Shown piece after piece: positions 12,947 to 16,984 of a stretch of DNA of 64,000 bases (positions are counted from its first letter, which is position 1; every line of letters begins with the position of its first letter). Made by a program: the position numbers and the translations under genes. The notes below the pieces were generated by a model. The model did not search any database. It was not told where the DNA came from and saw only the letters and a program-made list of their open reading frames with translations. The DNA is taken from the NCBI RefSeq assembly GCF_010726765.1, contig NZ_AP022601.1:4464001-4528000 (forward strand), read 5' to 3'. Source of the DNA: Mycobacterium gallinarum (GTDB lineage: Bacteria > Actinomycetota > Actinomycetes > Mycobacteriales > Mycobacteriaceae).

Positions 12947-12975
12947 TTGCGTCCGATAGCTAGTCAAACTATAGT
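12947..12975 (+). promoter_or_regulatory. Promoter of the glycosyltransferase operon
   Basis: TTGCGT at 12947-12952 and TATAGT at 12970-12975 are separated by exactly 17 bases, a good SigA-type promoter. The palindrome at 12975-12992 starts at the last base of the -10 box and covers the expected transcription start, which is an ideal repressor position. Confidence 0.65.
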
Positions 12976-12992
12976 CTGGACACATGTCCAGA
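12975..12992. promoter_or_regulatory. Palindromic operator TCTGGACACATGTCCAGA (copy 1)
   Basis: Eight-base arms flank a CA spacer (TCTGGACA-CA-TGTCCAGA). The 12-base core GGACACATGTCC recurs in reverse orientation at the start of the TetR gene at 16971-16984. Shared operator plus position over the -10/+1 of the operon point to repression by that TetR. Confidence 0.75.
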
Positions 12993-13077
12993 GAGGTTCG
13001 GAGTATTTGAGTGACACGATTTGTCCTGCTCATCGGCCCTGGACGTGTCCGCCTCCGCGCATCGGCATGAGCTGAAT

Positions 13078-14313
13078 ATGCGCATCGCATTGCTTTCATA
13101 CCGGAGCAAGACCCATTGCGGAGGGCAGGGGGTCTATGTCCGCCACCTGTCCCGCGGCCTCGTCGAGCTGGGTCATGACGTCGAGGTCTTCTCGGGTCAG
13201 CCCTACCCCGGTGGCCTCGATCCCCGGGTACGCCTGACCAAGGTGCCGAGCCTGGATCTCTACCGCGAGCCGGACCCGTTCCGCATTCCGTGGCCCAGCG
13301 AGATCAAGACGAGCATCGATCTGCGCGAGCTGCTGACGACCTGGACTGCGGGTTTCCCCGAGCCTAAGACGTTCAGCCTGCGCGCCGCCCGCGCACTGGC
13401 CGAGCGGCTCGACGACTTCGACGTGGTCCACGACAATCAGTGCCTCGGCACCGGCCTGCTGAAGATCGCCGACCTCGGCATGCCGGTGGTCGCCACCGTG
13501 CACCACCCGATCACCCGCGACCGGGTGCTGGACGTGTCGGCGGCACCGTGGTGGCGCAAGCCCCTGGTGCGCCGCTGGTACGGCTTCGCCGAGATGCAGA
13601 AGGATGTTGCGAGGCGCATCCCCGAGCTGCTGACCGTCTCGTCGACGTCGGCCGCCGATATCGCCGAGGACTTCGGGGTGTCGCCGGATCAGCTGCATGT
13701 CGTACCGCTCGGCGTGGACACCGAACTGTTCAAGCCGTCCGAGCGGCGGGTGCGCAACCGCATCATCGCGATCGCCAGCGCCGACGTCCCGCTCAAGGGC
13801 GTCGCACACTTACTGAACGCCGTCGCGAGGCTGCGCGTGGAACGTGATCTCGAACTGCAGCTCGTCGCCAAGCTCGAACCCAACGGACCGACTGAGAAGC
13901 TGATCGCCGAACTCGGCATCTCCGACATCGTGCACAGCTCTAGCGGGGTAACCGACATTGAGCTCGCCGACCTGCTGGCGTCCGCTGAAATCGCCTGCAT
14001 CCCTTCGCTTTACGAGGGCTTCTCGCTACCGGCGGTGGAGGCGATGGCCAGCGGCACACCGATCGTCGCCAGCCGCGCGGGGGCGCTGCCCGAGGTCGTC
14101 GGCGCCGACGGTGATTGCGCCCGGTTGGTCACTCCGGCCGATGTCGACGAGTTGACCAGCGTGCTCGCCGAACTCCTCGACTCGCCGCTGGAACTGCGCC
14201 GCCTCGGGGCCAATGGCCGCCAGCGCGCGCTGGATGTCTTCAGTTGGGAATCCGTTGCCGCGCAGACGGTTGCGGTATACGAACAAGCACGTGAGCGAGT
14301 CGCCAAATGCTGA
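13078..14313 (+). CDS. GT4-family glycosyltransferase
   Basis: 411 residues from ATG 13078. N-terminal Rossmann domain begins MRIALLSYRSKTHCGGQGVY with the glycine-rich acceptor loop; the C-terminal nucleotide-sugar domain has VVPLGVDTELFKPS and the E-x7-E motif in YEGFSLPAVEAMASGTPIV. It should transfer a sugar with retention of configuration to a lipid, terpenoid or other acceptor at the cytoplasmic face. An open frame reaches 13021, but that extension lacks family sequence. First gene of an operon: its last bases overlap the methyltransferase start. Similar GT/methyltransferase pairs are conserved in actinobacteria as far as I recall; the product is not known to me. Confidence 0.85.
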   Translation: MRIALLSYRSKTHCGGQGVYVRHLSRGLVELGHDVEVFSGQPYPGGLDPRVRLTKVPSLDLYREPDPFRIPWPSEIKTSIDLRELLTTWTAGFPEPKTFSLRAARALAERLDDFDVVHDNQCLGTGLLKIADLGMPVVATVHHPITRDRVLDVSAAPWWRKPLVRRWYGFAEMQKDVARRIPELLTVSSTSAADIAEDFGVSPDQLHVVPLGVDTELFKPSERRVRNRIIAIASADVPLKGVAHLLNAVARLRVERDLELQLVAKLEPNGPTEKLIAELGISDIVHSSSGVTDIELADLLASAEIACIPSLYEGFSLPAVEAMASGTPIVASRAGALPEVVGADGDCARLVTPADVDELTSVLAELLDSPLELRRLGANGRQRALDVFSWESVAAQTVAVYEQARERVAKC

Positions 14314-15023
14314 CCGTGGACTACGACCGGCTCGGTGTCGGCGCGGGTACGAAGGTGATCGACGTCGGCTGCGGTGCCGGCAGGCACACCTTCGAGGCGT
14401 ACCGCCGCGGCGCTGACGTCATCGGATTCGACCAGAGCGTCGAGGACCTCAACGACGTCGACGAGATTCTGCAGGCCATGAAGGACAAGGGTGAGGCCCC
14501 TGCTTCGGCCACCGCCCAGGCGGTCAAAGGTGATGCGCTCGATCTGCCTTATGCCGATGGAACTTTCGACTGTGTGATCGCCTCAGAGATCCTCGAGCAT
14601 GTGCCCGAGGACGACCGGGCGATCTCGGAGCTGGTCCGCGTGCTCAAACCGGGTGGCTCGCTGGCGATCACGGTGCCGCGCTGGCTGCCTGAGAAGGTGT
14701 GCTGGATCCTGTCCGACGAGTATCACGCCAACGAGGGCGGGCACATCCGGATCTACAAGGCCGACGTGTTGCGCGACAAGGTGCTCGCCCATGGCCTGCG
14801 GCTCACCGGCACGCACCACGCGCATGCGCTGCACGCACCGTACTGGTGGCTGAAATGTGCTGTCGGAACCGAGAAGTCGGATCATCCCGCGGTGACCGCG
14901 TACCACAAGCTGCTGGTGTGGGACATGATGAGCCGGCCCTGGCTCACGCGCACCGCGGAATCGGTGCTCAACCCGCTGATCGGCAAGAGCGTCGCGATGT
15001 ACTTCGAGAAGCCGGTGGTGTGA
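14307..15023 (+). CDS. Class I SAM-dependent methyltransferase
   Basis: 238 residues. Motif I is VIDVGCGAGRHT with an acidic end of strand 2 (VIGFDQS), motif II region YADGTFDCVIASEILEHVP, motif III LKPGGSLAITVP: a complete UbiE/COQ5-like Rossmann methyltransferase. The ATG overlaps the glycosyltransferase stop by seven bases, and its TGA overlaps the GTG of the next gene (GTGA), so the three genes are translationally coupled. It likely methylates the same product that the glycosyltransferase and the alpha-barrel protein work on. The C-terminal third (residues 150-238) is rich in Trp and His and may form the acceptor site. Confidence 0.87.
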   Translation: MLTVDYDRLGVGAGTKVIDVGCGAGRHTFEAYRRGADVIGFDQSVEDLNDVDEILQAMKDKGEAPASATAQAVKGDALDLPYADGTFDCVIASEILEHVPEDDRAISELVRVLKPGGSLAITVPRWLPEKVCWILSDEYHANEGGHIRIYKADVLRDKVLAHGLRLTGTHHAHALHAPYWWLKCAVGTEKSDHPAVTAYHKLLVWDMMSRPWLTRTAESVLNPLIGKSVAMYFEKPVV

Positions 15024-16122: not shown

Positions 16123-16167
16123 TAACGGGTTGATCACCAGCACTACGTGCGTCCGATCAACCCGTTA
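16123..16167. terminator. 13-bp hairpin between convergent genes (bidirectional terminator)
   Basis: taacgggttgatc at 16123-16135 and gatcaacccgtta at 16155-16167 are perfectly complementary, with a 19-base loop. It lies between the 3' ends of the rightward operon (16093) and the leftward methyltransferase gene (16205) and can serve both. Confidence 0.75.
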
Positions 16168-16204
16168 GGCCGAGGACCGCGCGGCTGATCCAGTCCGCCA
16201 GCCG

Positions 16205-16924
16205 TTACAGGGCCTCGCCGGGCACACCGGACACGCGCTCCAGCACCCGCATCGACCCGGTCGCCGAGACCTCGCGGAAATCGCCGGTGTCCAGCGCGCG
16301 GCGGTAGACGTGATACGGCGCCTGGCCGCCGTCGTCGGGGTTCGGGAACACGTCGTGAATGATCAGCGCGCCGCCGACGAGCACCCACCGCACCCAGCCG
16401 TCGAAGTCGCGCTGGGCGGCCTCCTCGGTGTGACCGCCGTCGATGAACAACAGCCGCAACGGGGTTCGCCATCCTCGGGCCACCGTCGTCGACCGGCCGA
16501 CCATCGCGACGACATGATCGTCTACCCCCGCGGCGTCGAGCGTGTGACGCAGCGTCGGCAGCGTGTCGAACAATCCGGTGACAGGGTCGACCATCGACTC
16601 GTCGTGGTATTCCCAGCCCGGCTGGTGCTCTTCGGAACCATGGTGGTGGTCGATGGTGAAGACCACACCGCCGCTCTGCTGCGCCGCGGCACCGAGCAAA
16701 ACCGTCGATCTGCCGCAGTAGGTGCCGATCTCCACGCCGACACCGTCGCCCAGGTAGCGGACGGCGGTGTCGTACAGCGTGCGCCCCTCGTCGGCGGGCA
16801 TGAAGCCGGTCACCTCGTCGGCGAGCGCGAACAGGCGGGCAGCGGCCTCGGGCAGGGCGGTGTCGCCGCCCTCGGGGAGCGCGTTATCAGCGCCCTCGGA
16901 GAGGGCAGTGTCTGTAGTGCTCAT
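16205..16924 (-). CDS. Class I SAM methyltransferase (Methyltransf_24 type), divergent from TetR
   Basis: 239 residues from ATG 16924. After a short Glu/Gly/Ala-rich N-terminus with a near-repeat ([20 protein letters not shown]), the core has [16 protein letters not shown] (motif I), [30 protein letters not shown] and [17 protein letters not shown], which match the cephalosporin-hydroxylase/Methyltransf_24 group that modifies sugars and secondary metabolites with metal help (H and D residues). It is divergent from the TetR gene 53 bases away, next to the operator at 16971. It therefore belongs to the same regulon as the glycosyltransferase operon that converges on it. Confidence 0.85.
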
Positions 16925-16970
16925 GGTGGCTAACCTACCGTTGCTGGTCATGGGCAGTTGTAGTAGCGTC

Positions 16971-16984
16971 CGGACATGTGTCCG
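16971..16984. promoter_or_regulatory. Palindromic operator CGGACATGTGTCCG (copy 2) at the TetR start
   Basis: Six-base arms CGGACA/TGTCCG flank TG. On the other strand the core is GGACACATGTCC, identical to copy 1 at 12975-12992. The GTG start of the TetR gene (16978-16980) lies inside it, so binding would give autorepression and also affect the divergent methyltransferase promoter. Confidence 0.75.

Follow-up and report, generated by a model that had tools for sequence, protein, structure and literature searches.

Probable sharing of the ManT operator by two TetR-family paralogues in Mycobacterium

The analysed window is a stretch of 64,000 nucleotides from Mycobacterium gallinarum (NZ_AP022601.1, positions 4,464,001 to 4,528,000), in which two palindromes with a common 12-base core lie at the promoter of a glycosyltransferase operon and at the start codon of a TetR-family regulator gene, here called tetR-A. 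The glycosyltransferase operon (manT, meT3 and mmpH) and the convergent methyltransferase gene meT1 are the known cluster for the 3-O-methylmannose polysaccharide (MMP), whose distribution and enzymes are treated in PMC9883506. From a comparison of genomes, the palindrome at the manT promoter is probably a shared operator, through which both TetR-A and a paralogue encoded with CYP51, TetR-B, would repress the MMP operon, and the arrangement would descend from an ancestral regulon of MMP and CYP51 genes.

In this model, both palindromes would serve as operators for a single TetR subfamily. At operator 1, a bound dimer would cover the transcription start below the -10 hexamer and repress manT-meT3-mmpH, and with it MMP synthesis and recycling, while TetR-A at operator 2 would cover the start of the gene that encodes it, which is probably leaderless. 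At both promoters a dimer over the -10/+1 region would block RNA polymerase, and both the repression of manT and the autorepression are likely from the position and the conservation of the sites. TetR-B, from the CYP51 operon, would also read the ManT operator, the same operator lying over its own GTG. In the ancestor of the family, MMP and CYP51 genes would have formed one linked regulon, whose duty was later divided between two paralogues in Mycobacterium; some lineages would then have lost one paralogue and retained the ManT operator. For the inducer, our guess is a lipid-type ligand.

Palindromes at the manT promoter and the tetR-A start codon

Operator 1 has two perfect arms of 8 bases around a spacer of 2 bases, and operator 2 has arms of 6 bases (Table 1). 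An earlier sequence-only reading of the window had described both, and re-reading of the sequence found them at the positions it gave: operator 2 is the core of operator 1 in reverse, with the GTG of the TetR gene (16978) inside it, and the hexamers TTGCGT and TATAGT at manT are 17 bases apart. Its placement of the first palindrome over the -10/+1 region held for the expected transcription start, which is covered; of the -10 hexamer, only the last T is overlapped. It had also noticed no third copy of the core. The exact core does occur only twice in the window, and the genome outside it adds five sites of the pattern GGACANNTGTCC. When up to two mismatches were allowed, the core matched 7 times in the window, as compared with a mean of 7.67 in shuffled sequences, and the evidence therefore lies in the exactness and the conservation of the sites, not in their number. 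Inverted repeats of the 8+2+8 form, of any sequence, were found three times in the window, operator 1 among them. Another perfect palindrome of this form, ACTTAGGC-CC-GCCTAAGT at 48615-48632, is also operator-like.

Conservation was analyzed in 60 genomes of the genus, including the window's own, with one ManT locus counted per genome and with thresholds of E up to 1e-100 for ManT and at least 67% identity for TetR-A. ManT was found in 49 of the genomes and TetR-A in 33. The ManT operator was exact at 41 of the 49 loci and present with no more than one mismatch at all of them, and 29 control palindromes with permuted arms gave at most 0 exact matches and 3 with up to one mismatch at the same loci. 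The information content was 1.95 bits per column in the core; the distant flanks had 0.85 upstream and 0.43 downstream. The operator at the tetR-A start was exact at 22 and within one mismatch at 33 of the 34 orthologous loci; these came from 33 genomes, since G030 has a second copy, with an internal stop and no MeT1 beside it. The palindrome is thus conserved upstream of the orthologous operons, which was one of the checks proposed in the sequence-only reading. A second set of loci, the best 80 of 564 confirmed stretches, overlaps the genus sample and is not independent of it. In this set, 73 of 73 mycobacterial ManT operators matched with up to one mismatch, 64 of them exactly; the 73 include contigs labelled Bifidobacterium and Actinomycetes bacterium, which were assigned by their ManT. 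The 27 loci of the set counted as having no TetR-A had none in the available flank, which in five of the 27 was shorter than 4 kb downstream. Both palindromes look like operators under selection, and each covers a place where transcription or translation is expected to begin.

Among the 48 distinct sequences from orthologous loci, 38 keep the -10 hexamer TATAGT of manT and 20 keep TTGCGT; a generic sigma-70 scan did not list the manT promoter (0 found). All 49 ManT operators carry [AG]TG (46 ATG and 3 GTG) in the position that the start codon takes in the TetR operators. The upstream open reading frames (ORFs) opened there have 8-35 codons, and 15 of the 49 end 0-11 bases before manT. Start codons also lie inside the operators of TetR-A, TetR-B and an oxidoreductase gene, and the whole pattern suggests leaderless transcripts that would begin within the operator.

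Other operator sites and the regulators that may read them

The genome (6.3 Mb, 100% complete) contains seven exact copies of GGACANNTGTCC, the pattern common to the TetR-A and TetR-B sites, as compared with three for a reversed-pattern control. Two are in the window, and the five outside are at 3769258, 3769370, 111575, 111673 and within a 1526-codon ORF. The sites at 3769258 and 3769370, the latter having the same core as the window sites, are located at an aldehyde dehydrogenase (ALDH) gene and the gene of the second TetR, TetR-B, 0.7 Mb from tetR-A. TetR-B is 46% identical to TetR-A, with 17 of 26 residues alike in the helix-turn-helix (ATAYTYFSS included), and its GTG start codon takes the same position within the operator as that of TetR-A. 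Downstream of tetR-B are genes for a P450, which we take to be CYP123, a short-chain dehydrogenase (SDR) and then CYP51 (832 bits to 1e9x, Rv0764c). From this CYP51 context and the gene order, TetR-B is presumably the orthologue of Rv0767c.

Two operator cores 98 bases apart were also observed at 111575-111684 (L001:5076-5185). The GTG with which a molybdopterin oxidoreductase gene begins falls in one of them; this gene stands beside a P450 gene and a sulfatase-family gene, presumably an arylsulfatase. The site in the 1526-codon ORF, which has ketoacyl-synthase domains (L002) and which we assume to be fatty acid synthase I, was taken as chance. A wider check covered 70 sites in 13 genomes. Of those not belonging to TetR-A, TetR-B or ManT loci, 21 sites on 20 stretches were inspected; G002, for example, has six more. 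Because most of these 21 are inside ORFs and correspond to none of the genes searched for, no wider conserved regulon is claimed. Exceptions were seen in L229, where a paired site adjoins another TetR, and in L236, with a site between divergent TetR-like and SDR genes.

The sequence-only reading had proposed a closed circuit of two promoters, with TetR-A as the sole repressor of its own gene, of MeT1 and of ManT-MeT3-MmpH. TetR-A does co-occur with ManT, being present in 33 of the 49 ManT genomes and in none of the 11 genomes without ManT (Fisher p 4e-5, kinship not corrected for), and TetR-A genomes keep both operators. In addition, G002, a genome in one contig, has TetR-A and an exact ManT operator (L050), while CYP51 was not found in it at E 1e-60 and the TetR-B query matched only TetR-A. 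However, the exact ManT operator is kept in all 16 ManT genomes without detected TetR-A, which speaks against TetR-A as the only regulator, and the same class of operator at the CYP51/ALDH/TetR-B locus and at the molybdopterin oxidoreductase gene speaks against a regulon closed at two promoters. The inclusion of four biosynthetic genes was not supported either. The element TA[AGT][GC]TT-N5-9-RTG precedes MeT1 at 27 of 32 TetR-A loci, where it is 34-108 bases from the operator, and at 14 of 14 tested loci without TetR-A, against a shuffled rate of 0.005, and is thus present even where the operator is absent. MeT1 as a target of the operator is therefore unsupported; it is probably transcribed from a promoter of its own and would be at most a candidate member of the circuit, and only ManT-MeT3-MmpH are clearly placed under the operator. 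On this evidence the closed circuit is unlikely.

We give a still smaller chance to the explanation that the ManT operator belongs to TetR-B, and that TetR-A regulates only itself and perhaps MeT1. It agrees with the terminal arm bases of the ManT site, which are those of TetR-B sites, and with the TetR-B-type match found in 15 of the 16 TetR-A-less genomes; the exception, G025, is 80% complete and has none. For 7 of the 15, the locus or an identity of 74-77% to TetR-B confirmed the assignment, and the other TetR-B and TetR-C labels (TetR-C being a third type, described below) were given by identity only. Against this explanation, G002 keeps its exact ManT operator without TetR-B and CYP51, and TetR-A is confined to ManT genomes and adjoins MeT1 at 33 of 34 loci. 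Conversely, in G023 TetR-B is the sole member of the subfamily at E 1e-15, and the ManT operator is kept. TetR-A alone in G002 and TetR-B alone in G023 thus each accompany a kept operator, and either paralogue probably reads it.

That the palindrome at manT is an RNA element (a hairpin of the 5' leader or an antisense terminator) and no operator is very improbable: a scan lists it as terminator-like on the minus strand, but shuffled sequences average 1.4 such matches, the core overlaps the start codons of regulator genes always in the same register, and an Rfam search from 12800 to 17600 gave no match.

Origin of the shared operator and points against it

The sample of the family comprised 151 genomes, and some loci from outside Mycobacterium are represented by two fetched stretches that differ in their borders. 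Outside the genus, 67 genomes have ManT, 56 of these with a TetR homologue and 11 without one at the cut-off, and 32 have TetR without ManT. ManT and the TetR homologue share a contig in 54 genomes, always within 36.6 kb (median 14 kb), and lie on different contigs in two. Among 26 fetched TetR loci with 50-74% identity to TetR-A, CYP51 was present in 19, ALDH in 18, a CYP123-like P450 in 18, SDR in 17 and ManT in 14; a 27th locus, with 49.7% identity, had neither CYP51 nor ALDH. In a test that began 250 bases upstream of each gene, with up to one mismatch and some loci counted twice, the core was found at 35 of 41 TetR, 25 of 28 ALDH, 8 of 29 CYP51 and 8 of 30 MeT1 genes. In G089 a single operator is followed by CYP51, P450, ManT, MeT3 and MmpH, all on the same strand. 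In a mycobacterial metagenome-assembled genome (G005), a single contig (L069, 8820 bases) carries TetR-B, the CYP123-like P450, SDR, CYP51, TetR-A and the beginning of MeT1; it is possibly a relic of an unsplit locus.

In the phylogenetic tree, the Mycobacterium TetR-A proteins are nested among homologues from other genera (99/96), with one long-branched sequence of another genus inside, and TetR-B and TetR-C form a separate, long-branched clade (97/100); because the outgroup branches are long, the root is uncertain. These data are most simply explained if one ancestral regulon contained the CYP51 and MMP genes and Mycobacterium split it between paralogues and gained or strengthened the ManT operator.

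Several observations weigh against a ManT operator shared by TetR-A and TetR-B and inherited from such a regulon. Outside Mycobacterium, the core was found upstream of ManT at only 2 of 29 loci, and none of the 7 Nocardia loci in the second set has the operator at ManT; the ManT operator is therefore mostly mycobacterial, though the linkage is older. Because the TetR-B/C clade is separate and long-branched, the split of the paralogues could predate Mycobacterium. The third type, TetR-C (39-44% identical), occurs in 12 of the 16 TetR-A-less genomes, with a C-like match in two more. The M. gallinarum genome holds nine further, weaker TetR matches, one of which, L006, falls in the TetR-B/C clade; no core site was found in its locus (3.5 kb). 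The arms of the ManT site end in T/A, like TetR-B sites, and those of TetR-A sites in C/G, so that TetR-A may be the weaker reader. Finally, relative to the putative promoter of MeT1, the operator at tetR-A is on the upstream side. As for TetR-C as the sole reader in the TetR-A-less genomes, it is unneeded, since G023 has no TetR-C.

Genes of the MMP cluster and comparison with known systems

The features of the region are listed in Table 1. TetR-A has the N-terminal TetR_N helix-turn-helix domain and so belongs to the TetR family. All four members of the MMP cluster (manT, meT3, mmpH and convergent meT1) were found, MeT3 by its position only; a structure-sequence search gave no close solved relative for MeT3, and MmpH had no Pfam match. 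The inverted repeat between mmpH and meT1 is possibly a two-way terminator; a terminator scan limited to loops of 3-8 bases did not list it. Upstream of the manT promoter is a gene for an F420-dependent PPOX-class oxidoreductase (TIGR03618; 12003-12467), and of the 33 fetched stretches with TetR-A, 14 have such a gene next to ManT.

Table 1. Features of the MMP cluster, its candidate operators and tetR-A (positions in the window)
Feature	Position	Strand	Description
manT operon promoter	12947..12975	+	TTGCGT 12947-12952, 17-base spacer, TATAGT 12970-12975; read from the sequence
Operator 1 (candidate)	12975..12992	.	TCTGGACACATGTCCAGA: arm TCTGGACA, spacer CA, arm TGTCCAGA
Possible leaderless upstream ORF	12984..13010	+	8 codons; ATG inside operator 1, at the TetR start-codon register; inferred
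ManT	13078..14313	+	alpha-(1->4)-mannosyltransferase of MMP synthesis; PDB 7qsg, 779 bits, residues 1-411; GT4 domains
MeT3 (putative)	14307..15023	+	SAM methyltransferase, putative 3-O-methyltransferase; Methyltransf_11; named by cluster position
MmpH	15020..16093	+	MMP hydrolase; PDB 7qsj, 739 bits
Inverted repeat	16124..16166	.	12-base perfect arms, 19-base loop; between convergent mmpH and meT1; read directly
MeT1	16205..16951	-	1-O-methyltransferase; PDB 6g7d, 410 bits; likely start ATG at 16924
-10-like element of MeT1	16937-16932	-	TAGGTT; promoter-like element of MeT1 itself
-10-like hexamer of tetR-A	16964..16969	+	TAGCGT; inferred; GTAGTAGCGTCC conserved among TetR-A orthologues
Operator 2 (candidate)	16971..16984	.	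CGGACA-TG-TGTCCG, 6-base arms; tetR-A start codon inside
TetR-A	16978..17547	+	TetR-family regulator; GTG start inside operator 2; PF00440, 51.7 bits (cut-off 24)

We propose, as a tentative idea held with less confidence than the sharing of the operator, that MMP synthesis and the CYP51 operon are one physiological unit of the Mycobacteriaceae, and that an ancestral TetR regulon was divided between paralogues with interchangeable operators. If this is true, the role of mycobacterial CYP51 lies in a lipid or fatty-acid response that also calls for MMP, and the ManT operator is a rare target promoter that was passed between paralogues after the loss of one. The physiological relevance of CYP51 in mycobacteria is called unclear in a review (PMC6469627), and the link to MMP would give this enzyme a new functional neighbour. 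Such a regulator swap would also be a clean case for how paralogues share and exchange operators. With a named operator and two candidate regulators, the control of the MMP cluster is now directly testable.

The cluster agrees with that of PMC9883506 in that ManT, MmpH and MeT1 match solved proteins and MeT3 has the corresponding position. The main text of that paper has no word beginning with "regulator", "operon", "promoter" or "transcription", and our literature search found no regulator of the MMP cluster. The best NCBIfam match of TetR-A is KstR, the TetR regulator of the cholesterol regulon, but at 40.8 bits against a cut-off of 280, and TetR-A was not taken as KstR. No link to TetR-A could be established for the locus tags G155_10530 and G155_29025.

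The nearest described system is that of PMC6593523, which reports a palindromic motif X with G155_05115, an orthologue of Rv0767c, as its candidate regulator and a copy of the motif near the start codon of this gene, and which infers autoregulation. Motif X stands next to 14 operons, 12 of them increased more than 3-fold on phytosterol, and these operons include genes for a cytochrome P450, a dehydrogenase and two further TetR proteins. The sites described here resemble motif X, by description and not base by base, in the palindrome at a TetR start codon and in the P450/dehydrogenase context. In contrast, the MMP genes are not named in the main text of PMC6593523 ("glycosyl" and "methyltransferase" occur 0 times). 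Unlike an Rv0767c-type regulator of the CYP51 operon, TetR-A falls outside the TetR-B/C clade and its gene is 0.7 Mb from CYP51; that place is filled by TetR-B. The TetR circuit, with its pair of strongly conserved candidate operators, would be of an ordinary kind, and its regulon an unexpected one, in which MMP synthesis appears together with the CYP51 operon by way of a paralogue.

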